From Haloglomus salinum (lineage in GTDB: Archaea; Halobacteriota; Halobacteria; Halobacteriales; Haloarculaceae), in NCBI RefSeq assembly GCF_024298825.1, contig NZ_CP101153.1:248001-312000 (forward strand): DNA of 64,000 nucleotides. Direction: 5' to 3'. The notes under the pieces were generated by a model. The model was not told the DNA's origin and did no database searches. It saw nothing but the letters and a program-made list of their open reading frames with translations. Position 1 is the stretch's first letter. Each line of letters starts with the position of its first letter. This document shows, in pieces, positions 1-10,405 of the stretch. The position numbers and the translations under genes are program-made.

Positions 1-2
1 AC

Positions 3-911
3 GACTGCCGTGATGCCGACAATGGGCGGCCAACCCCGGTCGCGAAAGAGATCGTCGGTGCGCTCGATTCGTACACCGAGGTCTCACCCAGCGGAACGGG
101 GTATCACGTCATCCTGCAGGGGCGGCTTCCGAGCGACCGGAACCGTCGTGGGAAGGTCGAGATGTACGAGAAGAAGCGCTTCTTCACCGTGACCGGCGAC
201 CACGTCGAGGGGACGCCCAGGTCGGCGAAAGAGCGGCACGAGGAACTCGACGAGGTATACGATGAACACATCGGCGTGGAGACGACGGCAGGCGGGAACG
301 AGCACGCCTCTGGACAGTCGTCACAGTCTGCACTCTCGGATTCGGAACTCATCCGACGGGCGGGCGCCGCGAAGAACGGCGAGAAGTTCCAGCGACTCTG
401 GCAAGGACAGACGACTGGCTACGCGAGTCAGTCGGAGGCCGATATGGCGCTCTGCTGTCTGCTTGCCTTCTGGACCGGTGGCGATACGAAACGGATGGAC
501 TCGCTGTTTCGGGGCTCGGGGCTGATGCGAGACAAATGGGACGAACAGCACTACGCTGATGGCTCGACGTACGGTGAGGTGACCGTCAAGCGGGCTGTGG
601 ATGTGACGGACGAGTTCTACGAACCCGCGAGTGGGGACGGAGCTGCGTCTGCTGGTTCGCGACCGTCATCCCGTCCGGCCCAACAGCGCGGGCAGCGAGC
701 CTACGATGCGGAGCGGATTCGATTACTGGAACAGCGAGTGCAGGAACTGGAGGCGCTGCTCGGGCTGAAAGAGGAACGGATCCAGATGCTCGAAGCAGAG
801 ATGGAAGATGGTGAGCCCGCGATCTCGGAGCCGGCTGGCGATCAGGTGGTGGGGGAGTCCGATTCGGTCTCCCAGGACTCGAATTCGTTCCTGCGGCGGC
901 TCTTCGGATGA
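3..911 (+). CDS. Primase-polymerase-type replication protein, C-terminal part (start lies before the window)
   Basis: The reading frame is open from the first bases of the window, so the gene begins upstream. The opening residues (SYTEVSPSGTGYH, then EMYEKKRFFTVTGDH) match the conserved region of the bifunctional DNA primase-polymerase fold carried by haloarchaeal plasmids and proviruses, where SPSGTGxH lies in the nucleotidyl-transfer domain. A helical middle segment follows, with the alternation typical of the NrS-1-polymerase-like helix-bundle region. The last 70 residues are a predicted coiled coil (EQRVQELEALLGLKEERIQ) with an acidic tail. Its likely role is priming or copying of plasmid/provirus DNA. 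The family call is from motif recognition; the active-site aspartates lie outside the window. Confidence 0.7.
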   Translation, partial: DCRDADNGRPTPVAKEIVGALDSYTEVSPSGTGYHVILQGRLPSDRNRRGKVEMYEKKRFFTVTGDHVEGTPRSAKERHEELDEVYDEHIGVETTAGGNEHASGQSSQSALSDSELIRRAGAAKNGEKFQRLWQGQTTGYASQSEADMALCCLLAFWTGGDTKRMDSLFRGSGLMRDKWDEQHYADGSTYGEVTVKRAVDVTDEFYEPASGDGAASAGSRPSSRPAQQRGQRAYDAERIRLLEQRVQELEALLGLKEERIQMLEAEMEDGEPAISEPAGDQVVGESDSVSQDSNSFLRRLFG

Positions 912-1765: not shown

Positions 1766-1903
1766 CTACTCGGTGGCCGGGTCGGAATCCAACTCCCGTT
1801 GCGCGTGGAGTAGCATTCCCTTCCACGTTAGCCCGTGGTGCTTCTTCGTCTCTTTAAGCGACTCGTACTGCTCCTCGTCTATCTCGAAGTTGATGTGTGG
1901 CAT
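1766..1903 (-). CDS. 45-residue protein divergent to tnpB
   Basis: The minus strand has an ATG at 1903 and 45 codons to TAG at 1766. The product begins MPHINFEIDEEQYESLKE, contains a basic KKHHGLTWKGML helix and ends in an acidic tail (SDPATE). The beta-strand then two helices pattern suggests a ribbon-helix-helix-like fold. It lies inside the element, head to head with tnpB (55 bases apart), so it could repress the shared promoter region; that is inference. Codon use is haloarchaeal and the opposite strand has no convincing frame. Confidence 0.65.
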   Translation of the reverse strand: MPHINFEIDEEQYESLKETKKHHGLTWKGMLLHAQRELDSDPATE

Positions 1904-1957
1904 ACTGCATTCTTACCTTCCGCCACACTTAACTTTGTCTACGCTCTATCTACGGGT

Positions 1958-3193
1958 GTGTCCGAGACGGTGACGAAGACGCTACAGGCCACGCTCGCAA
2001 CGCCCACCACGGGCAAAGAGCAACGCCTACAGCGGCTCTTGGACACCTACCGCGACGCACTCCACGAAGCCTTCGACAACAGGGCAGACACGATGTCTGC
2101 CGTTAACGACGTTGTGACGCCCTACGAACTGCCATATCAGGCCAAAGACGCGCTCAAGTCCTACGTCCCGAAACTCCGAGACACGTACAACGCCGAGGAG
2201 TTAGACGACGAGCATCCGCTTCGACTCGTCAATCGGGCCGCGAAATTCGACTACTCGGAGGAACGCGAACACGGCTTCGTATGGCAAGTCCCGCAACCCG
2301 GTCGCGGGACGAACTTCTGGATTCCACTCCGTATCAACCCGGAACATGAATCTCTGTGGTTCGACCTACTCTCCGAAGACGCGGAGGCGGGCGAGTTGCG
2401 CCTACAGCGACACCGCACGTCGTGGAGGTTGCACGTCACCGTCGAATACCTGGTCGAAGAACCGACCGAATCGGACGACCCGACGCACATCGGTTTCGAC
2501 GTAGGCGAGAGCGCGTTGATAACGGGCTGTGCCCTCAAACGCGACGTACCACGGAAGCCGATGCTCGTCAACGGCAGTCGAGCGCGACACCTCCGCAAAG
2601 AGATGTTCACCACACTCCGCCGTCTCCAACAGCGGGACGCCGCCGAATGGCGGGTGGACGAAAGATTCGACCACTACCAGAATGCCTTGACGGATATTGT
2701 CGAGAAAGCGTCTCGGCAGGCCGTCGAATACGCCCAGCAGTTCGAGAATCCGGTTATCGTTCTCGAAGACCTCTCGTACATCCGGGAACGACTGGACTAC
2801 GGGAAGTGGATGAACCGACGACTCCACTCTTGGGCGTTCGCCCGGATACAGGGCAGAATCGAAGACAAGGCAACCGAGGCGGGGATTCAAGTCGAGTACG
2901 TCAACGCGGCGTACACCTCGCAGACGTGCCACGCCTGCAAGCGTCTCGGTCGTCGGGGTCAGCAAGCGGAGTTCGTGTGTCCACACGACGACTGCCACGT
3001 AACGGAGTTCCAAGCAGATATTAACGCGGCGGCGAACATCGCCGGTCGCGTAGACCCGTGGGGAGAGAGCGTTCCTTGGAAACCGGAACGCGATGACTCG
3101 CCACAGGACGGGAGCGGTCGTGACACCGCCACAGTCCACCGGGAGACGAGCGAGACACCCTCGCAGATGACGCTCTCGGCCTACTCGGACTGA
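1958..3193 (+). CDS. tnpB: TnpB, RNA-guided endonuclease of IS200/IS605 family (copy 1)
   Basis: TnpB proteins are RuvC-type nucleases guided by an RNA made from the element's right end; they help retain the element and are the ancestors of Cas12. With the GTG start at 1958 (VSETVTKTLQATL aligns with the start of copy 2) the product has 411 residues. The three RuvC residues are in place: D181 (GFDVGE), E270 (IVLEDLS) and D354 (ADINAA). The zinc ribbon has C324/C327 and C341/C346. An ATG 41 codons upstream exists but reads across the left-end region, so GTG is preferred. It is closely related to copy 2 (about 420 residues) and distinct from copy 3. Confidence 0.9.
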   Translation: MSETVTKTLQATLATPTTGKEQRLQRLLDTYRDALHEAFDNRADTMSAVNDVVTPYELPYQAKDALKSYVPKLRDTYNAEELDDEHPLRLVNRAAKFDYSEEREHGFVWQVPQPGRGTNFWIPLRINPEHESLWFDLLSEDAEAGELRLQRHRTSWRLHVTVEYLVEEPTESDDPTHIGFDVGESALITGCALKRDVPRKPMLVNGSRARHLRKEMFTTLRRLQQRDAAEWRVDERFDHYQNALTDIVEKASRQAVEYAQQFENPVIVLEDLSYIRERLDYGKWMNRRLHSWAFARIQGRIEDKATEAGIQVEYVNAAYTSQTCHACKRLGRRGQQAEFVCPHDDCHVTEFQADINAAANIAGRVDPWGESVPWKPERDDSPQDGSGRDTATVHRETSETPSQMTLSAYSD

Positions 3194-3917: not shown

Positions 3918-4163
3918 ATGGCGACCCTCGAGATCGACGAGGAGGTGTACGAGGCGCTCAAGCTTCCCGAGGGGGAGCGCTCCGATGTGATGAAGCTGGA
4001 GCTGGCGGTGTCGCTGTACGCGCGGGACATCCTCTCGTTCGGGAAGGCACGGGCCCTGGCCGGACTGTCGAACCAGGAGTTCCAGCGGCTGCTCGGCGAG
4101 CGCGAGATCCCGCGCCACTACGGCGAGGAGGAACCCGCCGAGGATATCGAGTATGCCGGATGA
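3918..4163 (+). CDS. UPF0175-family antitoxin
   Basis: This 81-residue protein starts MATLEIDEEVYEALKL and has the ARALAGLSNQEFQRLLGERE helix-turn-helix-like core of the UPF0175 family. Those proteins are partners of PIN-domain (DUF3368) toxins and are thought to bind both toxin and operator DNA. The ATG at 3918 is chosen because it gives the conserved N-terminus; the frame is open 22 codons further up but without homology. The gene overlaps the PIN gene by 11 bases, so the two are surely co-translated. Confidence 0.8.
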   Translation: MATLEIDEEVYEALKLPEGERSDVMKLELAVSLYARDILSFGKARALAGLSNQEFQRLLGEREIPRHYGEEEPAEDIEYAG

Positions 4164-4503
4164 TCGGCTCGTGGTCGCCGATACCTCGCCGCTTCTGAAC
4201 CTCGCCCTCATCGATCGCCTCGATCTTCTCGAGACACAGTTTTCCGGTGTTACCGTCCCCGAACAGGTCTGGACGGAGCTTTCGGAAGGCGATGAGGGAT
4301 TGGCCAGACTTCGAGAGTTGCGTGAGTCCGGATTCCTGACTCTGGTCCCGGTTGACCGGTCCGACTTCTTCATCGAGATCGTCACCGAACTCGACCTCGG
4401 GGAAACAGCCGCGATCTGCCATGCTGTCGAGGAAGGGGCGGACCTGCTCTTGATCGACGAGCGAGACGGTCGCCGTGTTGCACGACGACATGAGTATACC
4501 TGA
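4153..4503 (+). CDS. PIN-domain (DUF3368) toxin, C-terminus clipped
   Basis: DUF3368 PIN proteins are Mg-dependent ribonuclease toxins. The acidic residues are visible: D10 in VVADTSPLLNL, E42 in QVWTELSEGD, the LGETAAICHA helix, and D98/D102 in LLIDERDGRR. The frame then ends abruptly (VARRHEYT, stop), about 30-45 residues short of the usual end. Immediately downstream lies an orphan IS right end (4511-4550). The four catalytic carboxylates survive, but the terminal strand and helix of the fold are missing, so activity is doubtful. It is co-transcribed with the UPF0175 antitoxin. Confidence 0.75.
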   Translation: MPDDRLVVADTSPLLNLALIDRLDLLETQFSGVTVPEQVWTELSEGDEGLARLRELRESGFLTLVPVDRSDFFIEIVTELDLGETAAICHAVEEGADLLLIDERDGRRVARRHEYT

Positions 4504-4803: not shown

Positions 4804-5202
4804 TTAATCCTCCGGCAGCCTGGAAGTGTCGATCTCGCCCGTTTCCAGCCACGTCGCCAGCTCTTCCACGCTGAAGAGCCCGCTTCGTCGGACGACCGTC
4901 GCCGTCTCGTCTCCCAGGTGATCCGTATCGATTCCGTGGCGGGACAGGTACTCCACTGCCACGGTCCATGCCGTCCGCTTGTTGCCGTCCTCGAACAGAT
5001 GGAGACTGATCAGTTCCCAGCGCAGGGCAGCGGCACGGTAGTGGGGGTTCTCGTACTCCCGGGCCGGCGCCAGGACCTCGCGTTCGAGTTTCAGTCGCGG
5101 AGCAGCCTTCATCAGTCCGCGATGCTTCAGGTCGTACGCTTCCTCGAGCTGCTCGTGCACGGCGAGAATCTCGTCCGGCGTGGGGAGCCCGTCATCCTCC
5201 AT
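4804..5202 (-). CDS. Doc/Fic-family toxin
   Basis: Death-on-curing proteins are Fic-fold kinases or AMP-transferases that inactivate translation factors. The signature HLFEDGNKRT (H68 to R76) is the Doc variant of the Fic motif, with His as catalytic base and Asn/Lys in the anion hole. The preceding helix ALRWELISL and the N-terminal LPTPDEILAVHEQ are typical of the family. The ATG at 5202 gives 132 residues, close to the family norm of about 125-150. An in-frame ATG at 5292 adds a low-complexity leader and is less likely. No antitoxin with the inhibitory helix is visible upstream; a 36-residue gene lies downstream. Confidence 0.75.
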   Translation of the reverse strand: MEDDGLPTPDEILAVHEQLEEAYDLKHRGLMKAAPRLKLEREVLAPAREYENPHYRAAALRWELISLHLFEDGNKRTAWTVAVEYLSRHGIDTDHLGDETATVVRRSGLFSVEELATWLETGEIDTSRLPED

Positions 5203-5302
5203 ACGGGTACAGTACCGCTGGTGGGCCCGTTCCACATCGGCGTTGTGGTTCCGTCGGTTGCTGCAGGGGTGGCGAATCTCTGGTGGAGGCACTCTATCGT
5301 AG

Positions 5303-5715: not shown

Positions 5716-6603
5716 CGACGACCTGGACCCGCTTGCCGCCCAGCAGACGCGGGCGATGGGCTTCTTCGAGGCGTTCTTCGAGTCGGTTGCGAACAGCCCG
5801 CTCGGGCAGCGCTCGCAGACGCTCCGGCGTGCCGTGCAGGAAGCGTACGACCAGCAGGGGATCACCCGCGACCCGGCGCCCCACGACAGGGACTCGCCGA
5901 CGATTCGGGACGTGGTCTCGGTGCTTGAGGCGATGCACGAGTCGCCTGCCGAGTACGGCTACGTGTCCCCCGGCGAGCGGGACCGGGTGGCCGCGCAGGC
6001 CGAATCACTCCTGACGGATCTGCGACCCTCCTTCCGCGAGGGTGGTGACCTGGCGAATCTCGCGAAGCCCACCGATTTCGACATCGAGTCGGATGTCGTG
6101 TACCTGGACCTGCATCAGCAGGAGGGCGTTCGCGGCGGGACCGAGACGTCGCTCATGATGCAGGTGTTGTTCCACTCGGTGTATGAGTGGGCCAAAGAGA
6201 CGGACAGTCAGGTGGTGCTCGCCATCGACGAGGCCCACTACCTGATGAACGCGGAATCCGCGTCACTGGCGTTCCTCGAGACGGCGGTCCGGCACAGCCG
6301 GCACTACAATCTGTCGATCCAGTTCATCACCCAGACCGGCGAGGAATTCTCGTTGAGCCCGAGACTCGGACTATCGCGAACCTGTGTTCGATCAAGCAGT
6401 TGCATCGCGTGGAGCAGGGTGACGATACGCTGGCCGAGTGGTTCGGGCTGAGCGACCGGGAGATCGCCTACGTCCGGACGGCGAAGGCTGGTGAGGACGA
6501 CGCTGGCTTTTCGGAGGCGTTACTCGGTGTCGATGAAGAGGGCTGGTTCCCGCTTCGGATCCGTGCGAGTCCGGTCGAGCAGGAGGTGATCGATGGGGGG
6601 TGA
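5716..6603 (+). pseudogene. VirB4/HerA-type conjugation ATPase, truncated and frameshifted
   Basis: The plus strand from about 5715 (DDLDPLAAQQTRAMGFFEAF) encodes the C-terminal part of a VirB4-like P-loop ATPase of haloarchaeal conjugative plasmids. The Walker B strand is visible (VVLAIDEAHYLM), as is a sensor strand (LSIQFITQT). The N-terminal half with Walker A is missing. At about 6359-6363 the frame breaks: the sequence passes from EEFSL into a second frame reading PETRTIANLCSIKQLHRVEQ through EVIDGG. One missing G after AGCCCG accounts for it. This is a relic of a conjugative element. Confidence 0.75.
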
Positions 6604-6792
6604 GCCCCGTCACCAGTCGACGGCGACGGTGAGTCAGCTGGTGGCAGACGACTGAGCGGCCCTCACTCCCTCGTCATCGCGACTGGTTCGTCGCCGCGCG
6701 GAACGCTGATCGGTGCGGTGTGAGTCTATTCCTGCGATTCAGGGCCTCTCATTCCAGTATTTTACACTGTAGCCCCTCAAGCCGCCAGTTAG

Positions 6793-6799
6793 TTTATTA
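6793..6799 (+). promoter_or_regulatory. TATA-box-like element upstream of the Orc1-like/nuclease gene
   Basis: TTTATTA is centred 28 bases before the ATG at 6824. That spacing is typical of leaderless haloarchaeal transcripts and supports this start codon. Confidence 0.45.
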
Positions 6800-6823
6800 C
6801 TCATCAGGCGACCAGCCGGTCAC

Positions 6824-8728
6824 ATGGAGGATTCACTCTTCGATCGGGGCGACCGTTTACTTGCTAATCCCGCCCCGCTTGACGTGTACCGCCATCCCGA
6901 TGAAGCGCGTTCCCCGGTCGCTCGCGAGCCCCAGATCCGCCAGTTGGAGGCACTGTATGCTCCACTTCGAGAGGGGGAATGCACCGGGTTGAATGTGGTC
7001 GCGTACGGCCCCCCAGACTCCGCCGCGGTTGGCAAGACCACCTCAGTGCGAGAGGTGCTCTATTCGATTGACGATGCCGAAATCATCGAGGTTCCGATCA
7101 ACCATCAGCAGAACGATCGCCAAACCGTAATCAGCGTGCTGGATCAGCTACGAGAGGCACGCGGCGGTGACGATACCAGAAAGTCCACAGAGAAGACAGT
7201 GGCCCTGTTCGATGCTGCTATCGGCGAGTTGGCGGCGAGTGACAGGCCGACACATCTCGTGTTCGATTGCTGTACCTCCGGAGCCCCGCTTTCTGCCCCC
7301 GATTCCGACCTCGATGAGATGGATCCCCTTCCAGCGATCTGGGAATTCCTGGCTCGAAGTAAGCGGGCTCGACTCGACGGAGGTCGCACTGGTGCACCAG
7401 ACGCGTACGATGTCACCGTCATCCTAACGGACGAAACCCAGTTCGACGAGTGCGGCCTCTTTGGGGACTACGTCGATGCGACAGTCTATTTCGACGGCTA
7501 CGACGCGGACGACCTCGAGGAGATCCTCTCGGACCGTGCAGAGGACGCATTCGTCGATGGAGCCGTCGATACGGAGACGATTCGGCACTGTGCTGAGTCG
7601 ACGCTCCCGTACGCCGCCAATGCGCCGCGGGTCCTCCGCCTCCTCAGAGAGGCTTGGCACTGTGCCGAGCGGGAGGATGCCGACGCCGTGCGCATGGAGC
7701 ATGTCGATGCAGTCACTGAGCGGTGGGACCTGCACGAACTCCGGGCAGTTGTCGACGGGAGTACTCCCCGGACGCAGCTTCTCTTGTGGATACTCGCTAC
7801 CCGTCAGAAGAAGCGTGGAGGCCCAGTTCGAACCGCCGAGATTCAGTCACATCGGAAGACGCTTGAAACAGACCTGGAGGGCGATTCCTGGTCCGACGCA
7901 TACGTCCGGGAACGACTCAAAGAACTCGAAGCACGGTGGCCATTCCTTGAACGTGAGCAGATCGCTGGCGGCCGAGGGGAGGGGGTCTACTACGAGTACC
8001 AGCTGCAGCCGGACTGCATGGCCGCTCTGGAGGCAATCGAGACGTACCTGAGCGACCACCTCCGGAAATCCGTTACCAGCGCCGATTCCTCGGGGATTCC
8101 CGTCGACGGAGGTTCTGATTCAGCGACGGCATCTACTGGTCCAGAGTCAGCGCCATCTGGTACTGAACACGCGGAGGAACGGAAGCAGGAATCGACAACC
8201 GAACAAGGTCGGCCCGAAGAGGGGGATGAAACCCGTTCGGTACGAGACCACCTGGAAATCCAGCACGCACTCGTCCAACTCGGACGGGCTCATCAGCACG
8301 ACGTATTCGTCGCTCGAAACGACCGCAGTGAGTCGATCGACGGTACGACGCTCGGCGAAGGTTGTGTCGACACCCTCCCGCTTCGAGGACTGCCGGAAAA
8401 GGCGGCCGAACTTATCGAGTATATCGACGTCATCTGGTTGGACGGCGATTCCATCGTCAAGATGTTCGAAGTCGAGAACTCGACGCAGATCTATTCTGGA
8501 CTCCTCCGGATGGCCGATTTCGCGGCCAGTGTGCCGAATCTCATGGTCGACCTCTATGTCGTCGTTCCGGAGAGCAGAGCGGAGACGGCTGAACAGCATC
8601 TGTCCCGACCGTCGTTTCAGCAACTGCTCCACGAACCGGAGCACATCACGGTCGACTCCAAAACGTTCGCCGAGATTCGACGGCTCCACGATTCGTCGTG
8701 CGAGGGTGACACCGACTTCCTTCGGTAG
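6824..8728 (+). CDS. Orc1/Cdc6-like AAA+ protein fused to a nuclease-like domain
   Basis: The N-terminus (SLFDRGDRLLANPAPLD) and residues 30-300 follow the Orc1/Cdc6 layout of origin-binding initiators. The P-loop is abnormal: GPPDSAAVGKTT (62-73) has extra residues before GKT. The Walker B strand LVFDCC (145-150) lacks the usual catalytic Glu after Asp. A winged-helix region (about 305-410) and an acidic, Ser/Thr-rich linker (415-470) follow. The last 160 residues are unlike Orc proteins: D535 and E549/E551 (FEVENSTQIYSGLLRM) fit the D...ExE layout of a PD-(D/E)XK-type nuclease core, with the family's preference for EVExS/T. The total of 634 residues exceeds ordinary Orc proteins (about 400). 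The nuclease assignment is inference; a genome-defence or plasmid-maintenance role is possible. Confidence 0.65.
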   Translation: MEDSLFDRGDRLLANPAPLDVYRHPDEARSPVAREPQIRQLEALYAPLREGECTGLNVVAYGPPDSAAVGKTTSVREVLYSIDDAEIIEVPINHQQNDRQTVISVLDQLREARGGDDTRKSTEKTVALFDAAIGELAASDRPTHLVFDCCTSGAPLSAPDSDLDEMDPLPAIWEFLARSKRARLDGGRTGAPDAYDVTVILTDETQFDECGLFGDYVDATVYFDGYDADDLEEILSDRAEDAFVDGAVDTETIRHCAESTLPYAANAPRVLRLLREAWHCAEREDADAVRMEHVDAVTERWDLHELRAVVDGSTPRTQLLLWILATRQKKRGGPVRTAEIQSHRKTLETDLEGDSWSDAYVRERLKELEARWPFLEREQIAGGRGEGVYYEYQLQPDCMAALEAIETYLSDHLRKSVTSADSSGIPVDGGSDSATASTGPESAPSGTEHAEERKQESTTEQGRPEEGDETRSVRDHLEIQHALVQLGRAHQHDVFVARNDRSESIDGTTLGEGCVDTLPLRGLPEKAAELIEYIDVIWLDGDSIVKMFEVENSTQIYSGLLRMADFAASVPNLMVDLYVVVPESRAETAEQHLSRPSFQQLLHEPEHITVDSKTFAEIRRLHDSSCEGDTDFLR

Positions 8729-8776
8729 CGTTACCATCACTCTCTCGTGGACAGAGTCGACGTGATATCGAACTAG

Positions 8777-9430
8777 ATGTATCAGAGATTCCATGAGAAC
8801 CTCTCGGCACGGGTCCGCTCGACGCTGGCCGAGACGGAGATTCATTTCGCCCCCCACGACGCGGCCGAGCTCCGAGCGATTCTCGAGCAGCGGGCCACCG
8901 AGGCATTCGAGTCGGGAGCGCTCAGCGACGACGTGATTCCGCTGACGGCAGCCCTCGTGGCATCGAACACCGGGTCGGCGCGGCGAGCGATAGACATCCT
9001 TCGGACGGCTGGGGAAATGGCTCAGAAGGCAGACACCGACCAGGTGGCCGAGGAGCACGTCCGTGTCGCCCAGGAGGAGGTTGAGGAAGCAATCATCAAG
9101 TCGGAGTTGACCTCGTTCTCGAGTCATGCGCTGCTTTCTCTGTACGCGGTGGCGGTCCTCGAGATGGACGAGTCGGTCGATGAAGTCCGGACGAAGACCG
9201 TCGCGCAACTGTATCGGCGGTTCTGTGAGGCCGTCGAGATGGAGGCACGAACGACACGGACTGTCCAGAACCACCTTTCCGAGATGGCTTTGATGGGATT
9301 CCTGACCTCGACTGAGCGCAACGAGGGCAAGGGCGGTGGGAAGTTCCTCGTCCACGAACTGTCGGTCGATCCGCAGGCGGTGAAGTCGGCCATCGGCGAG
9401 GTCGATCGGTTCGAGGGGCTCGTCGAGTGA
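8777..9430 (+). pseudogene. Orc1/Cdc6 replication initiator, C-terminal part only
   Basis: Starting at the ATG at 8777, the residues YQRFHENLSARVRSTLAETE and the lid/winged-helix segments (ALVASNTGSARRAIDILRTA; VQNHLSEMALMGFLTSTE) match the second half of haloarchaeal Orc1/Cdc6 proteins. The whole P-loop half is absent and an in-frame stop precedes the ATG, so this is a truncated copy, not a start-site error. It could still give a DNA-binding wing protein. It lies 48 bases downstream of the Orc1-like/nuclease gene, and the two may derive from two plasmid initiators that recombined. Confidence 0.65.
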
Positions 9431-9539
9431 GGTGTGTTTGGCAGCCGGGTGGGGGGTGTCATTCAGGCGGATGTCGTTCGCGAAGGCTCTGTCAGGCGTG
9501 GTTGTCGATTTGATATGGTGCGTTCTTCGGCGATAGCGC

Positions 9540-9690
9540 CGGCGACGACCGGTCGAAAGCCCCCGCTGGCTCGGGGTCCCGCGACTCGCTGCGGTCCTCG
9601 GTCGCTTCGCTCCTTGCGGTCCTTGCGTCGTCGGGGGACCGCCGAGCCCGCGGCCCCTTTCAGTCCCGCCCGGGTCGGTGTTCCAGGATA
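9540..9690 (+). repeat. GC-rich structured non-coding segment
   Basis: This stretch is dominated by short complementary blocks (for example GGTCCCGCGACTCGC, GCGGTCC and GGGGGACCGCC) and runs such as CGCTCCTTGCGGTCC. It has no convincing reading frame despite the open frames on both strands. It resembles multi-copy GC-rich intergenic sequence of haloarchaea, but I see only one copy here. It could be a structured RNA or the end of a mobile element. Confidence 0.35.
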
Positions 9691-9832
9691 GAGTACACAT
9701 CGTGCTATCTCGGTGAGTGCGCTCCGTGGACTGGACACGCTCGGTCGCCTCGATAGTTCCCGGACGAGGGCGAGGCTGAAGGCCGAGCAGTGGGAGTGGC
9801 AGCCAGAGCAGGACTCACCACAGCCCCAGTCA

Positions 9833-9876
9833 TCACAGAGGCTCAGGGCGGAAGCCCACGACTGCAGTCGTGGGTC
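9833..9876 (-). repeat. Palindrome-associated element, subfamily A copy 2
   Basis: The palindrome CCCACGACTGCAGTCGTGGG (9855-9874) is perfect. On the minus strand its tail CTTCCGCCCTGAGCCTCTGTGA matches the tails at 3797-3818 and 34256-34277. It sits in non-coding DNA. Confidence 0.7.
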
Positions 9877-10405
9877 GATGCCTGTGTCGTAGGTGTCGGG
9901 CACTTCGAGGACGTGCCTGCACCGTCGTCAATACCGGGGGCGCGATTCACAACGGGTGGGATTTCTACATCGCCACGTCCGTGTATCACGTTTAGCTAAA
10001 AAACCAAATCGCCAGCGGACTGTTTCGTATATTCAGAAGGGGATTATTCATGATGTGCTCCTGCAGGGATAACGGCCGTGCGTGCAGGTCCGTATCTGCC
10101 ATACGGCGGCGGGTTCCGTATAAAGGATCCACCGGTTCTTGCTGTTGATATCGTGACGCTGCGCCACACACCCGACCCCGTCTGGTGATTCGCTGGATAT
10201 AGACAATGACGGCGGAGTAATAAATCTGCGGGTGGCGTATCAAATATCATCTGATGGTCGCTTAGAGTGATCTTAAAATCACTGGGTGCAGATATTAAAT
10301 TTGTCAATCTAGCTCTCGCCAAAGTTGTTGCTGGCTGCTTCCATATATATCGGGGCAGACTTAGTCGGGCTGGACGTCTTAGTAAGGGCAACAGTTTGAA
10401 AATCT

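Follow-up and report, generated by a model that had tools for sequence, protein, structure and literature searches.

The window analysed here is a stretch of 64,000 nucleotides from Haloglomus salinum, and the gene under study is carried on a single 4.19-Mb haloarchaeal contig. It encodes a protein in which residues ~1-405 form an Orc1/Cdc6-type AAA+ ATPase with a winged helix and residues ~466-634 a PD-(D/E)XK-type restriction endonuclease (REase) domain. A second gene, for half of an Orc1 protein, starts 48 bp downstream, and this gene order is kept in Haloglomus halophilum ZY41 (G047). The features, in window coordinates, are:

6793-6799 (+), TATA-like TTTATTA, a candidate leaderless haloarchaeal promoter ~28 bp before the ATG, read from the sequence
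6824-8728 (+), Orc1/Cdc6-REase fusion gene, 634 aa, with Pfam, NCBIfam and PADLOC matches and a colinear G047 homologue
6824-7498 (+), degenerate AAA+ core, aa 1-225; AAA_16 match at 32-148, E 2e-8; dN/dS 0.25
7007-7042 (+), altered P-loop G62PPDSAAVGKTT73, the same in G047
7259-7273 (+), altered Walker B V146FDCC150, VLDCS in G047
7424-7432 (+), altered sensor 1, LTD (aa 201-203) replacing ISN in the Orc1 alignment
7520-7711 (+), Cdc6 AAA+ lid domain, aa 233-296; PF22703 E 9.4e-12, PDB relatives 2v1u and 2qby
7619-7630 (+), altered sensor 2, N266APR replacing GSAR/GDAR in the Orc1 alignment, NASR in G047
7736-8038 (+), winged-helix DNA-binding domain, aa 305-405; TIGR02928 matched as far as aa 394, ~20 haloarchaeal Orc1 proteins aligned
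8039-8218 (+), variable linker, aa 406-465; dN/dS 0.66
8219-8725 (+), PD-(D/E)XK-type REase domain, aa 466-634; PADLOC REase_II, AF2 and Foldseek
8426-8428 (+), D535, predicted catalytic Asp, invariant in 16 homologues
8468-8476 (+), E549-V-E551, predicted catalytic ExE, invariant in 16 homologues
8777-9430 (+), half-Orc1 of 217 aa, lid and winged helix, no P-loop; TIGR02928 190 bits, cut-off 181

The open reading frame and its division into an Orc1/Cdc6-like part and a nuclease-like part, as first proposed from the letters alone, were borne out by the family matches and by the G047 homologue, and together these confirm that the fusion is real and beyond chance. The homologue is colinear across the fusion junction, with 91.8% DNA identity over 2.9 kb, so that an assembly artefact is very unlikely. 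Upstream of the gene the CGCCAGTTAGTTTATTACTCATCAGGC block is identical in G047, and the TTTATTA within the same region may be a haloarchaeal leaderless promoter. An imperfect palindrome at 6755-6769 was rejected as an operator, having a single occurrence and a match in 39 of 100 shuffles as well, and the ORF at 8147-9700 (-) was discarded as a shadow, antisense to real genes.

The N-terminal part matches TIGR02928 with an E-value of 6e-31 and 107.5 bits, below the model cut-off of 181.3, in addition to the Pfam families AAA_16 and Cdc6_lid. Its best full-length relatives are haloarchaeal Orc1/Cdc6 proteins, with 26-28% identity across residues 5-403, and its relatives in the PDB are archaeal Cdc6 proteins. 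Both the lid and the C-terminal winged helix of Orc1/Cdc6 proteins are present according to PF22703, TIGR02928 and the alignment with ~20 haloarchaeal Orc1 proteins, in which the wing GGRGEGVYYEYQL is retained; PF09079 itself gave no match in the fusion protein.

The ATPase motifs were compared in an alignment with >20 canonical haloarchaeal Orc1 proteins. Four of them (Walker A, Walker B, sensor 1 and sensor 2) are lost in both known orthologues. The P-loop, GPPDSAAVGKTT, is expanded by three residues relative to the GKTGTGKT of canonical haloarchaeal Orc1 and is exactly the same in the two Haloglomus proteins, while Walker B reads VFDCC, compared with LDEID/FDEID (VLDEID) in canonical Orc1; neither a canonical Walker A GxxGxGK[TS] nor the DE of Walker B is found. 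These two changes, the altered P-loop and the Cys that follows the Walker B Asp in VFD148CC, had been called in the original prediction and were recovered in the alignment. The remaining changes had been missed: LTD and NAPR stand in place of the sensor 1 Asn and sensor 2 Arg motifs of Orc1/Cdc6 initiators, and the arginine-finger stretch is also degenerate, the segment aligned with LSPKVKDTL/LNERLDSSL being shortened. An alternative Walker B at DLDEMD (residues 162-167) was dismissed, as it is not preceded by a hydrophobic strand and G047 has DIDKTA at this position. Since the motifs are altered, ATP hydrolysis has probably been lost. It is important to note that the full-length AF2 model gave a pLDDT <50 for the N-terminal half and was set aside, which counts against the explanation favoured below.

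The C-terminal domain belongs to no Pfam or NCBIfam family and has no relevant sequence match in the PDB; PADLOC REase_II matches it with an E-value of 4e-5 in the fusion protein and up to 5e-14 in a homologue. D535, E549 and E551, predicted as the core of a PD-(D/E)XK site, are invariant in homologue sets of 5, 11 and 16 sequences from archaea and bacteria, and H476, W538, V550 and T554 are likewise invariant in the 16. As the triad is kept down to 19% identity, the lack of conservation that had been named in advance as evidence against a nuclease was not observed. BamHI provides a precedent for a D...ExE site in place of ExK. The AF2 model of the domain (pLDDT 81.5, pTM 0.82) has the element order helix-strand...D535-strand-ExE-strand-helix-strand of PD-(D/E)XK cores, with D535 immediately before one strand and the ExE closing the next, after which come a helix and a further strand. 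The structure search proposed at the outset points towards this assignment: restriction enzymes head the Foldseek list and PD-(D/E)XK nucleases are common in it, but the E-values are weak (best 8e-3, all above 0.001), which counts against the explanation favoured below. The top three PDB rows are the type II restriction enzymes EcoT38I (probability 0.99), BstEII (0.89) and EcoT38I again, and lower rows include SgrAI, BsaWI, EcoO109I, Mus81, XPF and Can2. The domain is thus likely to be an active nuclease, as predicted from its sequence and model.

The nuclease domain is present in 20 of the 391 haloarchaeal class genomes. Its usual form there is a protein of ~340 aa with an EVE-like N-terminal part (weak PF01878), found at about a dozen loci and hereafter called EVE-REase; the nuclease modules of the EVE-like proteins compared are 42-49% identical to the C-terminal domain of the fusion. 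The proposed check for homologues in defence islands was positive for these relatives of the nuclease module, which lie at BREX, DISARM-like and type I and type II restriction-modification (R-M) loci. Among the haloarchaeal loci examined, EVE-REase genes are located upstream of BrxB/BrxC or BrxC in two BREX loci (L063, L064), after DrmD and DrmMI in a DISARM-like locus (L059) and after HsdM of a type I R-M system (L061). Type II methyltransferases are among the EVE-REase neighbours, and at three of the loci (L055, L056 and L067) the gene adjoins other methyltransferases. The domain is C-terminal to EVE-like, HhH-like (by eye), HARE-HTH (L071) and COG1743-like methyltransferase partners. Because it is joined to such varied modules, the Orc1 part of the fusion can be seen as a further targeting module of a nuclease that moves between proteins: a restriction-nuclease module outside Pfam and NCBIfam is passed between EVE-like, HhH-like, HARE-HTH, methyltransferase and Orc1 targeting domains.

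Several relatives of the domain deserve mention in their own right. Proteins of 819-899 aa that combine a COG1743-like DNA methyltransferase with the nuclease domain (L068:5734-8433, L121:944-3403 and L122:2214-4673) may be single-chain R-M enzymes; they are found in haloarchaea and also in a further family of the same phylum. Relatives on bacterial plasmids (L085, L086, L087) are ~430 aa long, have an HhH-like N-terminal part and are annotated as type II restriction endonucleases; the Sphingomonas and Deinococcus copies lie within copper/heavy-metal resistance blocks without a methyltransferase, and further relatives are found on plasmids of Enterococcus (64) and Listeria (10). In Halolamina rubra an Orc1/Cdc6-like ATPase with intact motifs (L057:9180-10187) is located 0.9 kb (930 bp) downstream of an EVE-REase gene. 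A meaningful association was rejected here, as one of about a dozen neighbourhoods is, by a rough estimate, the chance level.

Combinations of Orc/Cdc6-clade ATPases with REases have been described before (PMC10853773, PMC12839542), so that the kind is already known and the suggestion of an undescribed system does not hold in this respect. In HerA/FtsK neighbourhoods Orc/CDC6 proteins occur together with REases, some active and some inactive, an Orc/CDC6 protein with a disrupted Walker B is on record, and CR-effectors join a CDC6/ORC1-clade NTPase to a C-terminal REase (PMC10853773). These conflict systems share with the fusion an Orc/CDC6-clade ATPase with REase domains, but in them either an inactive REase sits between AAA+ and wHTH and HerA/FtsK are the partners, or the ATPase derives from a transposase, whereas in the fusion the initiator is of cellular type, the REase seems intact and follows the wHTH, and HerA is not conserved alongside. 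Inactive ORC/Cdc6-like ATPases also occur in BREX, where BrxC/DUF499 and BrxB/BrxF resemble the fusion in being ORC/Cdc6-like ATPases that take part in defence and of which some have dead Walker motifs (PMC12839542), and DUF499 has been described as homologous to CDC6/ORC1 (PMC7641849). Unlike the fusion, BrxC/DUF499 are large multi-domain scaffold proteins. EVE-PD(D/E)XK fusions, described as type IV (modification-dependent) restriction enzymes (PMC7641849), carry the same kind of C-terminal nuclease module; the fusion differs in having no EVE/PUA sensor and a targeting domain derived from Orc1. With the haloarchaeal plasmid-type Orc1/Cdc6 initiators (TIGR02928) it shares the lid and the winged helix with its wing, but all four ATPase motifs are altered and a C-terminal nuclease is added. 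Orc1-2 of Saccharolobus is likewise a non-initiator Orc1 paralogue that works via its DNA-binding domains, but it regulates transcription, still binds and hydrolyses ATP and has no nuclease (PMC9738581). What is new here is the joining of an initiator-type Orc1, its winged helix retained, to a restriction module without a Pfam or NCBIfam model.

We propose that a copy of a haloarchaeal Orc1/Cdc6 initiator may have become a targeting module and been joined to the nuclease module typical of EVE-REase proteins. The winged helix, with the remaining AAA+ surface, would bind origin-like or other Orc1-type sites without switching by ATP hydrolysis, and DNA nearby would be cut by the C-terminal domain, which probably dimerises and uses Mg2+. 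The benefit could be that incoming plasmids or viruses with Orc1-type origins are restricted, or that the carrier element keeps out its rivals; the neighbouring half-Orc1 might, speculatively, be a partner that binds DNA or a competitor that protects it. A restriction nuclease that is targeted by its winged helix, works independently of ATP and attacks origin-like DNA in competing replicons, with targeting and cutting both inferred, is the explanation that we prefer and advance tentatively, at somewhat less than an even chance. Unlikely, on our reading, is the more specific version in which the pseudo-ATPase initiator recognises a replication-origin sequence, rather than methylation state, and so delivers the nuclease to rival replicons. 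If this version is true, foreign DNA would be recognised by its way of replicating. If the general mechanism holds, a restriction enzyme would be aimed by an initiator-type DNA-binding domain at a site that plasmids and viruses cannot easily lose. As a whole, the interpretation given in the original prediction is partly supported: the pairing of an initiator-like with a PD-(D/E)XK-type nuclease module, the loss of normal ATPase motifs, the defence association of the nuclease module and the mobile flank are borne out, and origin recognition, discrimination of self from foreign and plasmid exclusion are functions that the protein may have.

The distribution of the fusion was examined in 146 genomes of the family and 391 of the class, which are overlapping sets, and it was found only in H. 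salinum and H. halophilum ZY41. No Orc fusion was present in phage records or viral contigs, and two Orc1 scans of viral contigs gave no match. In G047 the frame is broken by two 1-bp deletions, with no further in-frame stop; either recent decay or an error in sequencing may be the cause. That the fusion is confined to two species of one genus, one of them carrying deletions, counts against the explanation that we prefer. The same narrow distribution and double frameshift would fit a fusion that arose by chance among the remains of mobile genes, in which an Orc1 fragment and an EVE-REase tail decay without a selected function, and fragments do abound nearby (pieces of an epimerase gene and of a frameshifted VirB4, and the half-Orc1). 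Against this, the 634-aa ORF is intact in H. salinum, the altered P-loop and the D535/E549/E551 triad are unchanged between the species, and nonsynonymous change is strongly suppressed. In a frame-corrected NG86 comparison of the two species with Fisher p-values, residues 1-225 gave dS 0.47 and dN 0.12 (p 2e-11), indicating purifying selection, which is also strong in the half-Orc1 (dN/dS 0.11, p 8e-6); for residues 466-634 (dS 0.05, dN 0.018, dN/dS 0.36, p 0.09) selection on the REase part alone was not significant, a point against the explanation that we prefer. We assign the chance fusion a minor, though appreciable, probability. Synonymous divergence is several-fold higher in 6824-7498 (0.47) than in 7499-9430 (0.05-0.20; p 2e-11), and this mosaic suggests a different history of the ATPase half, possibly through allele exchange or recombination.

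The surroundings of the gene had been described as a plasmid-like segment; a mobile flank is indeed present, but it is ICE-like rather than plasmid-like. An NrS-1-polymerase-type ORF opens the window (1-911), and to the left of the window lie two genes, one TrbL/VirB6-like and one VirB4-like (L116:15036-19740). The intact VirB4-like gene has a second, broken and frameshifted counterpart inside the window (5738-6603), with 65% identity between the two; this fragment was dropped as a VirB4/HerA partner of the fusion, being broken here and absent in G047. This left flank, together with the fact that Orc1 genes are standard on haloarchaeal plasmids, would suit a replicon-exclusion or partition factor of an integrated conjugative-like element, which would bind and cut related origins of its competitors rather than serve host immunity. 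Since the VirB4 fragment is missing at the G047 locus, however, the linkage of fusion and element is not conserved; we consider such a factor rather improbable.

A general search for repeats, made independently of the ORB consensus, covered 6604-6900 and 8700-10000 and showed no clear family. Type II R-M systems have a cognate methyltransferase beside the nuclease, but none was recognised among the ORFs around the fusion, and in a genome-wide search for PF01555 only, the nearest N6/N4 methyltransferases were at least 0.19 Mb away. That no ORB-like repeats, methyltransferase or other defence gene were seen beside the fusion counts against a restriction nuclease directed to origin-like DNA, for which we nevertheless retain our preference. 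That origin-like repeats were not found nearby also argues against a hybrid replication initiator, in which the nuclease would nick the origin of the protein itself and so set off replication or transposition. An initiator-type DNA-binding module joined to a nuclease could be read in this way, but the initiator ATPase motifs are lost and the relatives of the nuclease are of restriction type and located in defence loci, which makes this last possibility very unlikely. The BREX/DUF499 partners PglZ, PglX and BrxC had no match among the locus proteins scanned, and no tRNA was found near the fusion. The same mobile stretch carries an IS605-type TnpB-like gene at 1835-3193 (+), a PIN-like, toxin-like gene at 4153-4503 (+), recognised by eye and without a Pfam match, and a Fic/Doc gene at 4804-5292 (-).
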